Shown: in pieces, positions 2,908 through 9,351 of the stretch | Layout: every line of letters starts with the position of its first letter | How positions within the stretch are numbered: position 1 is the stretch's first letter | NCBI RefSeq assembly: GCF_024296685.1 | Contig: NZ_CP100763.1 | Location: forward strand, 3,162,001 to 3,226,000 | Length of the DNA stretch: 64,000 nt | Source of the DNA: Natrinema marinum | Lineage (GTDB): Archaea; Halobacteriota; Halobacteria; Halobacteriales; Natrialbaceae | Reading direction: 5' to 3' | Position numbers and translations under genes: made by a program | The notes under the pieces: model-generated | Told to the model about the DNA's origin: nothing | The model's input: only the letters and a program-made list of their open reading frames with translations | Databases searched by the model: none

Positions 2908-4554
2908 ATGGTCCGGGAGTTCGAACTGCCGGACGTCGGCGAGGGGGTCGCGGAGGGCGAACTGGTCTCGTGGCTGGTCGAGGCGGGCGACGCGGTCTCG
3001 GAGGACCAGCCGGTCGCCGAGGTCGAGACCGACAAGGCGCTCGTCGAAGTGCCCGCACCGGTCGACGGTACGGTGCGCGAACTACACGTCGAAGAGGGAG
3101 AGGTGGTGCCGGTCGGGACGGTGATCATCTCGTTCGACGTCGAAGGCGAGGAGAGCGAGGAGCGTGGCGCCTCGGAAAGCGCGAACGGCGAAGCCGTGAG
3201 CGAGGGCGAGGCGGAGCCGAGCGGACCGGCGGGCGGCGGCGACGAGTCGACCGCGGATTCCGGCGCGACGGGGTCCGATACCGAGACAGTCGCGCCGCCC
3301 GATGACCGAGTCTTCGCACCGCCCCGCGTCCGCCGGATGGCACGCGCGGAGGGGATCGACCTCTCTCGAATCGAGGGCAGCGGTCCCGGCGGTCGGATCA
3401 CTGCGGCCGACGTTCGAGCAGCGGCGAGCGCCGCGGTCGACGACGCGGCGGCTCAGTCCCGGCCGCAGACTGTGGAGTCCGGTGTGGTTGACTCTGGCTC
3501 GGCCGACTCGAGCGAGGCCGCTGCCGGCAAAGACACCGCTACGGGCGCGAGCGCCGATGCCGAGGCGGCCTCGAGGCCGCAGCGGACCGAACTGGCGGCG
3601 GCCGAGTCCGCCGACCGCGACAGGACGCTTGCCGCCCCCGCGACCCGGCGGATCGCCGAGGAGGCGGGAATCGACATCGACGCCGTCCCCGCGGACGGGA
3701 CGCGCGACGGCGAGGCGTTCGTCACGCCGGAGGCGGTTCACGAGTACGCCGAGGCACAGCGTCGAGCCCAGGAGGCGGACAGAGAGGCGATCGAAGCCGA
3801 CGGACGGGCCGAGACGAAGGGAACGGACTTCGCCGAGGGCGAGCGCGAACGCCGCGAACCGTTCCGCGGGGTCCGCAAGACGATCGCCGACGCGATGGTC
3901 GAGTCGAAATACAGCGCGCCCCACGTCACGCATTACGACGAGGTCGACGTGACCGCACTCGTCGAGGCCCGCGAGGAACTCGCGCCCCGCGCCGAGGAAC
4001 GCGGCATTCGGCTGACCTACATGCCCTTTATTCTGAAAGCCGTCGTGGCGGCGCTGAAGGAGTTCCCCGAGATGAACGCGGTCATCGACGAGGACAACGA
4101 GGAGATCGTCTACCGCGACTACTACAACGTCGGCATCGCGACCGCGACCGACGTCGGACTGATGGTGCCGGTCCTCGCGGACGCCGATCGGAAGGGCCTC
4201 TTGCAGCTCTCCTCCGAGATGAACGAACTCGTCCAGAAGGCCCGCGACCGGACGATCAGCCCCGACGAACTGCGGGGCTCGACGTTCACGGTCACGAACG
4301 TCGGCGGCATCGGCGGCGAGTACGCCACGCCGATCCTCAACTACCCCGAGGCGGGGATTCTGGCGATCGGCGAAATCAAGCGCAAGCCACGCGTGGTGAC
4401 CGACGACGACGGCGACGAATTGATCGAGCCGCGGTCGGTGCTGACTCTGTCGCTGTCGTTCGATCACCGACTGATCGACGGGGCCGTCGGCGCGCGGTTT
4501 ACGAACACTGTCATGGAGTACCTCGAGAACCCGAGCTTCCTACTGCTCGAGTGA
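2908..4554 (+). CDS. pdhC: Dihydrolipoamide acyltransferase (E2) with two subunit-binding domains
   Basis: The 548-aa E2 transfers acyl groups from the lipoyl arm to CoA. Residues 1-80 are a lipoyl domain with the modified lysine at K43 (ETDKALVEV). Residues about 135-172 form a peripheral-subunit-binding domain (PPRVRRMARAEGID, then GSGPGGRITAADV). A second, more divergent one follows at about 240-283 (APATRRIAEEAGIDIDAVP, then EAFVTPEAVHEYA). Acidic Ala/Ser/Asp linkers separate them. The catalytic domain runs from about 315 to the end and carries HRLIDG (H520, D524). Haloarchaeal and bacterial E2 proteins more often carry a single binding domain, so the second copy is noteworthy. No E3 gene follows, although that is the usual fourth gene. 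Confidence 0.93.
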   Translation: MVREFELPDVGEGVAEGELVSWLVEAGDAVSEDQPVAEVETDKALVEVPAPVDGTVRELHVEEGEVVPVGTVIISFDVEGEESEERGASESANGEAVSEGEAEPSGPAGGGDESTADSGATGSDTETVAPPDDRVFAPPRVRRMARAEGIDLSRIEGSGPGGRITAADVRAAASAAVDDAAAQSRPQTVESGVVDSGSADSSEAAAGKDTATGASADAEAASRPQRTELAAAESADRDRTLAAPATRRIAEEAGIDIDAVPADGTRDGEAFVTPEAVHEYAEAQRRAQEADREAIEADGRAETKGTDFAEGERERREPFRGVRKTIADAMVESKYSAPHVTHYDEVDVTALVEAREELAPRAEERGIRLTYMPFILKAVVAALKEFPEMNAVIDEDNEEIVYRDYYNVGIATATDVGLMVPVLADADRKGLLQLSSEMNELVQKARDRTISPDELRGSTFTVTNVGGIGGEYATPILNYPEAGILAIGEIKRKPRVVTDDDGDELIEPRSVLTLSLSFDHRLIDGAVGARFTNTVMEYLENPSFLLLE

Positions 4555-4893
4555 TGGCGGATCGCCGGTAGGGCTGTTCCGACGTATGTTGATGGCGGCG
4601 GTACGCCCCTCCGTCGGTGTCGATCCCGTCGCCGTCTCGACGGGATACCGCGTCGGTTTCGCGAGCGAGCCGGCTGCCTTCGCTGGTCCGTGGATCTGGG
4701 CGGTCGGCCAACTCGGCGAAGAACCGCGTTCCGTCTTCGAGCGGTTCGCGCAGCACGTACCGTCGGAGTGCGGTCTGGTCGCGTTTGGCGCGTTCAGGGT
4801 CCGCTTTCACGACAACAGTAACCGTGCTGTCAGCGAAGCGGAGGTATCACGCCGTCGGGTGCGTCGCCGACGTCCAACGGCTGTCAGAACCGA

Positions 4894-4944
4894 TCACTGC
4901 ATTCGTAGCAATTGGGCGTGCAGCGTTGACCCCACCTCGAGGAC
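4894..4944 (-). pseudogene. Detached 3' end of a DUF424 gene (duplicate of 6409-6459)
   Basis: 51 nt match the 3' end of the intact DUF424 gene (6409-6459) at 45 of 51 positions. The encoded C-terminus (LEVGSTLHAQLLRMQ, then stop) differs from the intact copy by a single Ala/Ser change, so most base differences are silent. The similarity stops abruptly at both sides. The mostly synonymous divergence suggests the two copies evolved as functional genes in different lineages before being brought together, rather than by a recent local duplication. Confidence 0.7.
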
Positions 4945-5028
4945 TGGTTCGGCGTCGTCGTCCTGCTGTGCTGGCTGGTCGTGCCCGTCGCGATCGGCTA
5001 CTATCGGTTCCGCCGAACGGATCTGTGA
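4942..5028 (+). pseudogene. C-terminal fragment of an ABC-2-type permease
   Basis: The plus frame reads DWFGVVVLLC, WLVVPVAIGY, YRFRRTDL, stop: a hydrophobic helix followed by the aromatic/basic tail (GYYRFRRTDL) typical of the last transmembrane segment of ABC-2 permeases. A stop codon at 4927-4929 closes the frame just upstream, so only the final 28 residues survive. It abuts the DUF424 fragment, which marks a recombination junction. The family call rests on this short tail and is moderate. Confidence 0.5.
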
Positions 5029-5353
5029 GCCGCGACCGCGGACCGACTTCAGATAGTAGTAGTTAGCAACACTGTCTTGGTCTGCAGGACGTTCCTGAGA
5101 CCGAGACGACGACGGTAAGTCCGTGCGCGAATGTCGCACGAACTTTGGTATGATCTGCAAAGGTCGAGATCGATTAGTACGGATCTACAGTTACTAGAGT
5201 CGTGACCAGAATGTATGGGTACTGATAAAAATGACGTGCTGAAATGATGGGTCGTTCACCTGGATTATTTGCTATGTGATTCCTTTTACCATCTATGGAG
5301 GTATAAACAGAGGAGACCATTAATTATATCGTGGTGTATAAGAAAATACTATC

Positions 5354-5539
5354 ATGGTGGATACCTCGAATGTACGCCTTTTCACAATGGCACTGGTTTC
5401 CGCACTCCTAAGTCTCGTCATTTATGGCGTAGTATACAAATTTTATAAACCGAATGATGGCGGGCTGTTAACACTGATAATCGCCGTTGGGGTCTTTTCA
5501 ATACTGGCGTTTGTCGATGGTTATCTAGAAAGTGATTAA
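5354..5539 (+). CDS. Small two-helix membrane protein
   Basis: A 61-aa frame with two hydrophobic segments, about residues 9-28 (FTMALVSALLSLVIYGVVY) and 38-55 (LLTLIIAVGVFSILAFV), joined by a short loop (KFYKPNDGG), and an acidic end (GYLESD). A TATA-like TTAATTATATC lies about 30 nt ahead. Composition is distinctly AT-rich compared with the flanking operons, suggesting acquired DNA. I do not recognise a family; the size and two-helix layout resemble many uncharacterised haloarchaeal small membrane proteins. Confidence 0.55.
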   Translation: MVDTSNVRLFTMALVSALLSLVIYGVVYKFYKPNDGGLLTLIIAVGVFSILAFVDGYLESD

Positions 5540-5606
5540 TGTTCAAAATAAACATGCTGCTAAGGGGTTGACACCTTTACATATAGAGGAGGATTGCGAT
5601 TCGGCG

Positions 5607-5634
5607 GCTGATGGCATATTGAAGACCCATCAGC
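5607..5634. terminator. Inverted repeat between convergent small ORFs
   Basis: GCTGATGG (5607-5614) and CCATCAGC (5627-5634) are perfect 8-bp arms around a 12-nt loop, followed by ACACTTTTCAA. It lies between the plus-strand small membrane ORF and the minus-strand pseudogene, where a shared terminator would be expected. Confidence 0.35.
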
Positions 5635-5676
5635 ACACTTTTCAATACATTTAGGGATCTGTGTGTTTATCTGACC

Positions 5677-6000
5677 CTATGAGCTACTTCCACACACATA
5701 TCGACCATCAACATTTTCTATACCCAACCCATCGCCGTAACATTCGTTGACGCCACTTCCACCATCCGGAAGAGCACCGATGGTAGTCTCTGGATACTCA
5801 GTAAACGCACCATATGGACCACCCGCATACGTCATTTTTCTTTTTCTGGTAGAGAGCACTAACATATCTCCCCAGGGGTTGGTGGTTTCGTCGAACTTTT
5901 CTTTTTTATTACCATCATCACTTCAAAACCACCCAATGTTTTCAGCCCATCCATTACTGGATATATTAACAACTTCATCTCCTTCGGTGTCCCTCTTTAC
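5677..6000 (-). pseudogene. Decayed gene for a Gly/Asn-rich protein with an in-frame TGA
   Basis: One minus-strand frame stays protein-like across an in-frame TGA at 5923-5925. The upstream part reads EVVNISSNGWAENIGWF; the downstream part runs SDDGNKKEKFDETTNPW and on through MLVLSTRKRKMTYAGGPYGA to GLGIENVDGRYVCGSSS. Translation could restart at the ATG at 5865 and give a 62-residue C-terminal piece. The 5' end beyond 6000 meets another stop. Two cysteines and many Gly/Asn residues suggest a surface or secreted protein, but I do not recognise a family. AT-rich composition sets it apart from the neighbouring operons. Confidence 0.45.
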
Positions 6001-6162
6001 CTACCGTGCTTTACAGGGATTATTTTGCAGAGTAGAGCCGGCTACTATCTACTGTTCACAGTACCAAGTCGAGCGGCGGAGCGGTGCGATCTGGGTCGGC
6101 TCCGAGCGAAAACCGAGCGCGTCGTCATCTTTCCGAGGACCCGCTACCGCGCCCCGATCACC

Positions 6163-6408
6163 TCACTCGGTGCCGATTCCGTTTTCCTCGAGAAAGCGTC
6201 CCGGGACGCGACAGCCGCAGGGATTCGCCTCGTGGGTCGTCGGACTGTCGTTCACGACCGATTCGACGGGGTGATCACAGCGCGGACACCGAACCGGTTG
6301 CCGCCCGGCCGCGTCGTCGCGTGCTGACGACTCGCCGGTCGCCGTCGATCGAATCGATCGGCGCGAAAATGGGGCGTCGGTCGGACAGCGATCACCGCGA
6401 TCGGACGG
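6163..6408 (-). pseudogene. Zinc-binding-type small protein without a start codon
   Basis: Directly after the DUF424 stop codon, and in the same frame, the minus strand reads on for 81 codons. It ends in a compact domain with CPRC and CGC cysteine motifs (VRCPRCDHPVESVV, then NPCGCRVPGRFLEE). This looks like a small haloarchaeal zinc-ribbon-type protein. No ATG, GTG or TTG occurs between the DUF424 stop and the first cysteine motif, so the gene has lost its start, uses a non-standard one (an ATT is present), or needs stop readthrough. I treat it as a truncated remnant at the scar boundary. Confidence 0.4.
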
Positions 6409-6702
6409 TCACTGCATTCGCAGTAACTGCGCGTGCAGCGTCGCCCCCACCTCGAGGACGTTCGCCTCGTCGACGAATCCCTCTTCGATAGCCAACTCGA
6501 CGGCGCGAGTGCCGACGATGTTGGCGACGTCCGCCTGCGCGAGGCTCTCGAGGACGGCGTTCTCGTCGGCCGCGTCGCCGCCGTAGAACTCCTCCGTGAC
6601 GGTCAGGGAGAGGTCGCCGTCTTCGAACGTCTCGCCGAGAACGTCCTCGTCACAGACGGCGACCAGCAGCCCCTCCTGGGTCTCCCGTTCGTTGACGATC
6701 AT
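6409..6702 (-). CDS. DUF424 domain-containing protein
   Basis: This 97-aa protein belongs to the archaeal DUF424 family, recognisable from its N-terminus (MIVNERETQEGLLVAVCDED), the central GETFEDGDLSLTVTEEFYGG and the VLEVGATLHAQLLRM end. Function is not established in what I know of the family; it is a small, widely conserved archaeal protein. The ATG follows the TAG of the upstream TPR gene with no gap, so the two are co-transcribed and probably translationally coupled. Its last 51 nt recur at 4894-4944, showing that this 3' end was a recombination or integration point. Confidence 0.85.
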   Translation of the reverse strand: MIVNERETQEGLLVAVCDEDVLGETFEDGDLSLTVTEEFYGGDAADENAVLESLAQADVANIVGTRAVELAIEEGFVDEANVLEVGATLHAQLLRMQ

Positions 6703-7632
6703 CTACTCGAGTTCCCACTCGCGGTCGTCTTCGTCTTCGTCCTCGGCGTCGCCTGCGATGTCACCGAGCCCGAGGTCCTCGAGACCGATGTCGCCTCGCT
6801 GGGGCGATTGGCGTCCGGCCCCGAGTCCGGGCTGGCCGCCGGCTCCCGGTCCGGCGCCTGCGCCGCCGGGGCCGCCCCCGCCGAGGGCCTCCTCGCGGTC
6901 GTCCATCATTTCCTGCTCGGCGCGCTCGCGCATCTGGTTGGCCTCTTCGGCGATCTCCTCGGCCTGATCGAACTCGCCGAGTTCTTCGAGGATCTCTGCC
7001 TTTTCCTCGAGCACCTTGGCGTTGCGCAGACCGAGCCGGATCGCGTTGTCGATGCAGTGCAGCGCTTCCTCGGCCAACCCGCGCTCGGAGAGGAAGAACG
7101 CGCGGTTGAACCAGCCGGCGGCGAAGCGTTCGTCGATCTCGATGGCGCGTTCGGCGTGCTCTAAGGCCTCCGAGGTCTCGCCGAACTCCCAGAGCGCGTA
7201 GGCGAGGTTCGTCTCGGCGGTCGCGGCGTGCTCGCTCGAGTCGTCGATCCGCAGGGCCTCGCGGTGGGCGCCGATCGCCTCGTCCCACTCCTCGAGTTCG
7301 CCGTGGGCGACGCCCTTGTTGACCCAGGCTTCTTGCTCGAGTCGCTCGTCCTCGGCGAAGCGGGCGGTCCGCTCGAAGGCGTCGGTGGCCTGCTCGTAGC
7401 GGTTGATCTGCATGTAGTTCAGCCCCACGTCGAGTAGTTCGCTGGCGTCGACGTCGTCCCGATCGATGTTGTGTTCGTCTAACGTGTCGGTGACGACGCG
7501 GGAGTCGACGGGGTCGACCTTCGACGGATCGACGCCCAGTTCCGGCGGGTCCAGGTCGAACTCCTCGTAGGGATCGCCGAACCCCTCTCCTTCGGAGAAG
7601 CGGTGGTCGCGGTCGTCGTCTCGGTCGGTCAT
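6703..7632 (-). CDS. Tetratricopeptide-repeat protein
   Basis: A 309-aa soluble protein. An acidic N-terminus (about 70 residues) is followed by about five TPR units from residue 70 to 215, each with the W/Y-A/G-L and alanine signature (for example GLNYMQINRYEQATDAFERT and AWVNKGVAHGELEEWDEAIG). A coiled-coil-like charged helix (EEIAEEANQMRERAEQEMMD) follows, then a Gly/Pro-rich linker and an acidic tail. TPR domains mediate protein-protein contacts; the partner is unknown. It is the first gene of a pair with DUF424. Confidence 0.85.
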   Translation of the reverse strand: MTDRDDDRDHRFSEGEGFGDPYEEFDLDPPELGVDPSKVDPVDSRVVTDTLDEHNIDRDDVDASELLDVGLNYMQINRYEQATDAFERTARFAEDERLEQEAWVNKGVAHGELEEWDEAIGAHREALRIDDSSEHAATAETNLAYALWEFGETSEALEHAERAIEIDERFAAGWFNRAFFLSERGLAEEALHCIDNAIRLGLRNAKVLEEKAEILEELGEFDQAEEIAEEANQMRERAEQEMMDDREEALGGGGPGGAGAGPGAGGQPGLGAGRQSPQRGDIGLEDLGLGDIAGDAEDEDEDDREWELE

Positions 7633-7722: not shown

Positions 7723-9351
7723 TCAGACTCGCTCGCCGAACCGTCGGGTGACCCCCCGAATCGACTGCGTGACCGCGCCCGGATGGGGCAGGCCGAGCCG
7801 ATAGCGGACCCGATCCTGCCGTTTGAACGGCTCGAACACCGCCGGCTCCGCGAGCTCCCAGATCCGAGCTGTCGATCCGGAGACTCCGCGTCGCTCGAGG
7901 ACGGCGTTGGCCGCGCGCCGCCCCGCTTCGTTCGCCGACTCCATGGAGGCGAGATCGGCGTTCGTGCGAACGTAGTCACTGGCCACCGTCAGGTTCTCGA
8001 CGGCAACGTCCGCCGGCGGTCGGTTTCGCAGCGAGCCGACGGTGTTGATCAGCAGCGGCGAGCGGTTCTCGACGCCGCCTTCAGTTTCGACGATCGCCGG
8101 ATCGAGGAACCAGTCGACGAGGTGCTCGTCGCGCAGCCGCTGGTCGGGACCGTTCAGGTGGTTTTTCAGCTGTTCCCAGATCTCCGTCGCGATCTCTTCG
8201 GGCGTACACTCCCTCGCCGGCTTGCCGAAGACGATTCCGGGCGTGTCCCAGTCCGAGGCGATCACGGAGAGGACGCCCTCGACCTCGTCGGGCCCGTGTT
8301 CCTCGAGATCGTACCCCGTCCAGAACTGGCGCTGGGAGATCGAAGTCAGCGCCCAGGGCGCGTCGGCGTAGACCTGATGACCGCGGGTCAGGTCCACGTC
8401 GTCCGCGAGGTAGAGCTGGATGCCGTTCATCCAGGCCGTGTCGAGCCGCCCGATCCGCTCGAGTTCGGGCGCGTTCCGGGCCAATTCCGTTGGGATCAGC
8501 TCGGGGGCGACCTCGACCGGGACAGCGAGGACGTACTCGTCGGCTTCGATCGCCTCCCCGTCGGCCAGCGTCGCCCCCGTGACGCGGCGGCCGTCGTTCT
8601 CGAGCCGCCCGACGGCGGTGTTCGGCCGGAACTCGACGCCGAGCGACTCGAGGTGGGCCAGCCAGGGATCGATCCAGGCCTCGCTCGTCGGCGCGTTCAG
8701 CACCCGTTCGGTGGGCTGCGTCGGATCGAGCTGGCCGAACAGCAACTGGAGGTAGATCGACCCGATCGTCCGGGCGCTGCCGACCTGCGGCCGGAGCGCG
8801 ACGAGCGACTGGACGGCGAACGCGAGCCGGTCGCGAAACTCCGGCGAGCGGTTCTCGGCGTCGATGAACTCCCACCAGGAGACGTCGTCGAGCTCTTCCT
8901 CCCGGCGGGCCTCGCAGGTCGTCAGCAGGTAGAACAGCCGCTCGAGGAGGAAGCGCACGTCCCTGGCGGGCAGGTCCTCGGCGAAGGCGGGGCGCAGCGC
9001 CTCGAGCCAGCCGCGGGCCGAGTCGGGCGTGGTCGTTTCGGCGATCTGGCCCGGCCCCGTGGTGCTCGCGATGAGCGTCGCCTCGGTCTCGACGAGGTTG
9101 TCCGCGACGGTGCCGGGTCCGTCGGGAATCCGCTCCATCGTGTCGATGACGTGGCGGTAGAACGCCGGGAAAAAGCGAAAGCCGTGCTCGCCGTGGAGGG
9201 GTGCGGGCTCGTCGGAGATCGGCATCGACCGGGCCTTTCCACCGAAGCGGTCGTTCGCCTCGTAGACGGTCACGTCGACCCCGCGCTCGGCGAGTTCGTG
9301 CGCCGCGGTGAGGCCGCCGATCCCGCCACCGAGGACGGCTACGTCGGTCAT
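7723..9351 (-). CDS. FAD-dependent oxidoreductase, hydroxysqualene dehydroxylase/phytoene desaturase-like
   Basis: A 542-aa flavoprotein of the amine-oxidase superfamily. The N-terminal dinucleotide-binding motif is VAVLGGGIGGLTAAHELAER, followed by the E of VYEAND and the GGKARS loop; a second flavin-contacting stretch is ADEYVLAVPVEVAPELI. Near the C-terminus VENLTVASDYVRTN and MESANEAGRRAANAV match the FAD-closing motif. Related haloarchaeal proteins are usually annotated as hydroxysqualene dehydroxylase or phytoene-desaturase-like, consistent with isoprenoid metabolism, but the substrate is not evident. It stands alone, with about 90-120 nt gaps on each side. Confidence 0.8.
   Translation of the reverse strand: MTDVAVLGGGIGGLTAAHELAERGVDVTVYEANDRFGGKARSMPISDEPAPLHGEHGFRFFPAFYRHVIDTMERIPDGPGTVADNLVETEATLIASTTGPGQIAETTTPDSARGWLEALRPAFAEDLPARDVRFLLERLFYLLTTCEARREEELDDVSWWEFIDAENRSPEFRDRLAFAVQSLVALRPQVGSARTIGSIYLQLLFGQLDPTQPTERVLNAPTSEAWIDPWLAHLESLGVEFRPNTAVGRLENDGRRVTGATLADGEAIEADEYVLAVPVEVAPELIPTELARNAPELERIGRLDTAWMNGIQLYLADDVDLTRGHQVYADAPWALTSISQRQFWTGYDLEEHGPDEVEGVLSVIASDWDTPGIVFGKPARECTPEEIATEIWEQLKNHLNGPDQRLRDEHLVDWFLDPAIVETEGGVENRSPLLINTVGSLRNRPPADVAVENLTVASDYVRTNADLASMESANEAGRRAANAVLERRGVSGSTARIWELAEPAVFEPFKRQDRVRYRLGLPHPGAVTQSIRGVTRRFGERV

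Follow-up and report, generated by a model that had tools for sequence, protein, structure and literature searches.

The pdhC-DUF424 junction of Natrinema marinum as the likely breakpoint of a 337-kb chromosomal inversion

The window analyzed here was a stretch of 64,000 nt corresponding to positions 3162001-3226000 of the Natrinema marinum genome (G000, a single contig of 3,766,003 bases; other G numbers denote the genomes of relatives). The segment under study, at window positions 4555-6408, is located between pdhC and a DUF424 gene, and its features are listed in Table 1. The original prediction named an AT-rich stretch, a permease fragment, a small membrane ORF, a pseudogene and a start-less ORF in this segment. 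All of these parts were found to be real, and the start-less ORF corresponded to the degraded zinc-finger-like gene; the remnant of a further gene on the minus strand, directly following pdhC, had been overlooked. The GC content was 43% in the AT-rich core (5100-6050) and 64-70% in the surroundings. No sequence similar to the 80-nt junction sequence was observed in any locus compared.

Table 1. Features at and around the pdhC-DUF424 junction (window positions)
Feature	Positions	Strand	Description
pdhC	2908-4554	plus	dihydrolipoamide acyltransferase, E2; left breakpoint flank
Gene remnant	~4574-4810	minus	~65-80 codons of the 415-aa CIS-cluster edge gene next to pdhC in relatives with the cluster
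Junction sequence	4811-4890		80 nt
Outer DUF424 3'-end copy	4891-4944	minus	VLEVGSTLHAQLLRMQ-stop, 17 codons including the stop; 45/51 to the functional copy
Shared 11-nt word ACCTCGAGGAC	4934-4944		joins the DUF424 end to the permease end (microhomology); occurs in both genes
ABC-2 permease 3' end	4934-5029	plus	last 32 codons, 96 nt; 92/96 to the full-length gene
AT-rich cassette	5030-6150		between the permease end and the zinc-finger gene; pieces in two other genera (G088, G126)
Small membrane protein gene	5354-5539	plus	intact, 61 aa; 66% identical over 58 aa to a G088 protein
Secreted-protein pseudogene	5692-5991	minus	3' 100 codons with one in-frame stop; 59% identity to G088
Zinc-finger-like gene	~6153-6303	minus	degraded; CPRC...CGC (CPxC...CGC)
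DUF424 gene, functional copy	6409-6702	minus	97 aa; right breakpoint flank
TPR-protein gene	6703-7632	minus	ancestral DUF424 neighbour
FAD-protein gene	7723-9351	minus	ancestral DUF424 neighbour

As had been predicted, the DUF424 gene ends in 51 nt (6409-6459) that were repeated at 4894-4944 in direct orientation, 1515 nt apart and with 45 of 51 positions identical. A slightly longer pairing (4891-4944 with 6406-6459) showed 87% identity over 54 nt, and the similarity between the two copies stopped at the stop codon. In 20-kb blocks of the N. marinum genome, the 51-mer had a next-best match of just 26-30/51, and the repeat was therefore not attributed to chance. Five of the six base differences between the copies fell at third positions, in agreement with the earlier claim that the changes are mostly silent. 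When the changes were polarised by the relatives, about one of the six was assigned to the functional gene and five to the outer copy. Four of these five were at third positions (binomial p ~0.045), which weakly suggests, as had also been claimed, the descent of the outer copy from a functional homologue. No clear case of a second DUF424 end was found in the relatives, where the best match elsewhere was 34/51 against a background of ~27-31. A match of this size near DUF424 in Halorussus ruber was considered as a second end and was set aside, since it was similar in the first half only.

The outer DUF424 copy is joined, via the 11-nt word ACCTCGAGGAC, to the 3' end of an ABC-2 permease gene. 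The first 78 nt of the 96-nt permease copy were identical to the full-length gene of the same genome, and all four differences were clustered within 9 nt (clustering p = 0.0015). These observations bear on the suggestion that homologous recombination brought in a foreign segment together with a DUF424 end of its own. The mostly silent changes of the outer copy and the end of similarity at the stop codon, as expected for orthologs of different species, agree with such an import. The outer copy differed at 6 positions from the DUF424 gene of its own genome and at no fewer than 7 from that of any of ~45 relatives, however, and GATCTGTGAG, common to the attached permease end and the permease of N. 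marinum, is absent from all the relatives listed. Because both duplicated pieces are closest to the genome's own genes, a foreign DUF424 is not needed, and no inversion of the kind described below would follow from an import alone, which we regard as improbable.

The gene order was compared between N. marinum (2785001-3226000, 441 kb) and Natrinema zhouii (G021, 1912001-2312000, 400 kb). On the lpdA side the two genomes were collinear on the plus strand up to 2828936 in N. marinum and 1929504 in N. zhouii. The following 337 kb of N. marinum (2829254-3166555) matched N. zhouii 2290944-1929564 in reversed orientation, with small internal differences, and collinearity on the plus strand resumed on the DUF424 side at 3168411 and 2291011, respectively. 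Thus pdhC was the last collinear gene of the inverted block (ending at 3166555) and DUF424 the first gene outside it (from 3168411). At the second breakpoint, near 2.829 Mb, the reciprocal new adjacency joined the ABC-2 permease to lpdA: the full-length permease gene (2829253-2830125, minus strand), the ATPase gene and an iscS-like gene beyond them occupied ~2829253-2834700, immediately upstream of lpdA (2827470-2828933). Both breakpoints therefore carried the final 96 nt of the permease gene, as an inverted duplicate.

The usual order in most Natrinema species and in other genera was DUF424-TPR-FAD, convergent with the ABC-2 permease and its ATPase. Among 24 genomes of the same genus, counted by hand from gene positions, the permease and DUF424 lay together in convergent orientation in 17 (by position), while pdhC and lpdA were adjacent in 13 and 25-31 kb apart on one strand in another 5. 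Only in N. marinum, among the genomes compared, was pdhC found beside DUF424, and there lpdA was absent behind pdhC. Since the old adjacencies are common to the relatives, the direction of the change is clear. The comparison of synteny proposed earlier bore out the absence of a clear second DUF424 end in relatives, but none of the genomes compared had the expected uninterrupted pdhC-DUF424 locus. Taken together, these results make it highly likely that the segment at 4555-6408 is one breakpoint of the 337-kb inversion; the inverted order is known from the assembled sequence of one genome of the species.

No transposase ORF was recognised at either junction, which gave no indication of an IS pair, and no integrase was found at either breakpoint. 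One orc1/cdc6 gene is located inside the inverted block, at distances of 128 kb and 209 kb from the two breakpoints. This position is only roughly central, and an inversion placed symmetrically about an origin was not adopted as an explanation. We also considered an assembly artefact, in which the chromosome in fact kept the old order and the assembly jumped from one permease end to the other. As 78 nt of the inverted repeat at the hinge are identical, a short-read misassembly is conceivable there. Against it stand the single complete contig, the unique sequence close to the repeat on all four sides and the unique decayed sequence at both junctions, while the gene remnants and the DUF424-permease chimera would be real in any case, so that an artefact appears very improbable.

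The gene remnants indicated what had formerly been present at the break. In G010, G015, G020, G008 and other genomes, the gap between pdhC and lpdA held a contractile injection system (CIS) cluster, found or placed by position. The full cluster in G010 contained genes for the sheath (PF04984 and PF17482), baseplate J (PF04865), a gp5-type OB spike (PF04717), Tail_P2_I (PF09684) and an AAA ATPase (PF00004). CIS clusters of haloarchaea and their function in antagonism have been described (PMC11566945). The remnant behind pdhC in N. marinum showed 57-61% amino acid identity to G010, G015 and G020 (61% over 67 residues) and 43% to G024, and at the other breakpoint the sequence separating the permease from lpdA contained a remnant of the lpdA-side CIS gene (52% identity over 42 residues). 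No sheath gene was detected in N. marinum with a query that detected the sheath in 15 of 41 genomes as a positive control. With remnants of the edge genes at both junctions and no sheath gene where the query works elsewhere, the ancestor of N. marinum very probably carried a CIS cluster between pdhC and lpdA, which was mostly lost. The insertion of the cluster at this site may be old or repeated, as the lpdA and pdhB trees were compatible with either.

The sequence upstream of lpdA (L103:6881-6984) was conserved where a CIS cluster or its remnant precedes the gene, and differed in the operon form with adjacent pdhC and lpdA. This conservation among those genomes, unlike the operon form, suggests that lpdA has a separate promoter where a CIS cluster or remnant precedes it.

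The small membrane protein and the secreted protein are encoded as a pair in G088 (L184), a member of another genus, with a DDE transposase gene between them, and the G088 relative of the pseudogene is a secreted protein of 240 aa with a Tat signal. In G126 (L185), from a second genus, the membrane gene occurred without its partner on a contig with plasmid-like genes. These relatives of the AT-rich segment surfaced in a family-wide genome search, and no match to the segment was obtained among plasmid and phage records. The small membrane ORF and the truncated ORF could not be assigned to a family with Pfam or PHROGs, nor could the 240-aa relative with Pfam. The Tat-signal protein may be a secreted factor, with the membrane protein as its partner. 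Within the cassette, ~50 nt at 5123-5173 recurred at many apparently noncoding sites of Natrialbaceae and are perhaps an IS end or a small mobile repeat; this short noncoding repeat (at ~5125) occurred once in the N. marinum genome. An intact 85-aa relative of the zinc-finger-like protein was encoded in the permease-DUF424 gap of another Natrinema genome (G012), at the same place and in the same direction, so that the G012 gap (permease, zinc finger, DUF424) matched the content to the right of the joint in the window; a paralog was present elsewhere in N. marinum (3616501-3616629). We infer that the AT-rich cassette was cargo that entered the permease-DUF424 gap before the inversion and then decayed.

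According to the original prediction, an element bearing an integrase had entered the 3' end of DUF424, rebuilt the gene with its own copy and decayed. A direct repeat of a gene's 3' end flanking decayed AT-rich DNA, with relatives in other genera and one of these on a contig with plasmid-like genes, is in line with such an element. Nevertheless, the host permease's own end is located inside the repeats, and so the content is not foreign only; the filled permease-DUF424 gaps examined in a subset of species held no integrase among their ORFs, nor was one seen here, and no relative had a clear second DUF424 end. The 337-kb inversion and the missing lpdA behind pdhC would also be left unexplained, while the inversion explains the arrangement. 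The notion of a recombination scar with decayed content holds, but the integration of an element is extremely improbable.

On the inversion reading, the course of events would have been as follows. The order before the event would have been pdhABC, CIS cluster and lpdA, with the ATPase and permease genes converging on DUF424-TPR-FAD a few hundred kilobases away. Cuts inside the CIS site and at the ends of the permease and DUF424 genes would then have been followed by an exchange of partners, in which pdhC came to face DUF424 in the window and the permease came to precede lpdA at 2.829 Mb. The CIS cluster would have been mostly lost, the pdhC-side remnant being kept in the window and the lpdA-side remnant beside lpdA. 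At the joint, the last 96 nt of the permease would have been duplicated, with one copy per breakpoint in inverted orientation, and the 51-nt DUF424 end stitched to the window copy via the 11-nt ACCTCGAGGAC. The AT-rich cassette and the zinc-finger remnant would represent older contents of the permease-DUF424 gap, separate from the break. The inversion, its reciprocal junction, the remnants, the inverted 96-nt duplication and the 11-nt junction can be read directly in the assembled sequence; that both duplications were made in the inversion event, by templated or staggered repair, is what we infer from them. An inverted duplicate at both ends is the product that staggered-break or templated repair would be expected to give, and the manner in which the ends were joined is proposed tentatively, with somewhat less than even confidence.

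Several features of the joint could also be produced by other routes. Recombination between inverted copies that already existed would leave the same duplicate, and the identical permease tract could be the site of a crossover; a very similar trace would be expected from an earlier tandem duplication or from a crossover within this tract. The inverted duplicate is present at both ends, and its clustered mismatches also permit a copy that predates the inversion. The DUF424 end directly followed by the permease end is the order expected of a circle or a tandem copy between two ACCTCGAGGAC words. A tandem duplication of permease end, gap and DUF424 end followed by inversion was considered and would account for the chimera. 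No repeat of the present gap was seen in the flanks, however, and under this scheme the gap must therefore have been very short or have been lost. The divergence of the DUF424 copy (6/51) and that of the permease copy (4/96) gave p = 0.096, and the DUF424 part compared with the identical permease tract (0/78) gave p = 0.003, a contrast picked after seeing the data. As the DUF424 copy is more diverged and the permease differences are clustered, the two duplications may be of different dates.

These comparisons are relevant to a two-step variant, in which a DUF424-permease chimera, formed as a circle joint or tandem copy at ACCTCGAGGAC, first entered the decayed CIS site beside pdhC. The 337 kb would then have been flipped later, when the permease end of the chimera crossed over with the full-length permease, which lay in inverted orientation. 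A crossover or gene conversion would be expected to leave a tract such as the 78 identical nt with all differences in one 9-nt cluster, divergence is higher in the DUF424 part outside it (by the post hoc contrast above), and haloarchaea are known to rearrange by homologous recombination between near-identical sequences (PMC6063281). On the other hand, the variant requires an extra insertion of which no intermediate was seen among the relatives, and the shared tract is short, the repeats of the haloarchaeal precedent being 600 bp (PMC6063281). It is a possible but doubtful route to the same inversion.

The permease/DUF424 junction was also affected in other lineages. An inversion of ~49 kb, distinct from that of N. 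marinum, broke it in G018. In G020 the permease and DUF424 were 378 kb apart through an independent rearrangement, with G028 similar by position. The gap between the two genes held a halocin-C8-like precursor gene (PF22862, L126:2506-3375) in Natrinema thermotolerans (G006), an eCIS_core gene (PF13699) in G016, and in G017 an AstE/AspA-like gene, similar to one in G003. The breakage of the junction in at least two other lineages, together with the antagonism genes there in several species, is suggestive of a rearrangement hot spot. Further, the permease/DUF424 and pdhC/lpdA junctions might be linked, recurrent break-and-cargo sites of Natrinema, at which rival-killing cargo (CIS, eCIS_core, halocin-C8-like) comes and goes and inversions are promoted by the cargo or gene-end sequence that such sites share, though we consider this broader idea rather unlikely. 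The permease-DUF424 gap at L127:2978-5011 contained, outside any CIS cluster, eCIS_core and a second gene resembling one in the G010 CIS cluster.

An inversion breakpoint is an ordinary, known kind of event, which is unusually readable here. The duplicated gene end, previously taken for an integration site, would thus be re-read as part of an inversion breakpoint, and the locus offers a base-level example of a large haloarchaeal inversion with no visible IS or integrase at the joints. What can still be read there is an inverted duplication of short length, a microhomology at the joint and fragments of the genes that formerly occupied the break.

Among known systems, the integrase-driven inversions of Thermococcus, whose enzyme acts on segments as short as 104 bp (PMC5495485), are likewise large archaeal inversions, but no integrase was found at the N. 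marinum breakpoints. In Haloferax volcanii, rearrangements arise by recombination between repeats, namely sod genes and IS elements (PMC6063281). There, too, the chromosome is restructured between two dispersed sequences and inverted repeats give an inversion, although those repeats are ~600-bp genes or insertion sequences, whereas N. marinum shares 96 nt with no IS pair seen. The pdhC-lpdA cluster of the relatives resembles the haloarchaeal CIS (PMC11566945) in its sheath, baseplate J, gp5-type spike and AAA ATPase, of which N. marinum keeps fragments of two edge genes only. Inversions by staggered breaks in Drosophila leave inverted duplications at their breakpoints (PMC4965816). The N. marinum case differs in its length (96 nt as against hundreds of base pairs to kilobases), in its archaeal host, in the extra 51-nt piece stitched on and in a repair route that is only proposed; as in Drosophila, a segment that would once have been present a single time now lies at both breakpoints in inverted orientation.
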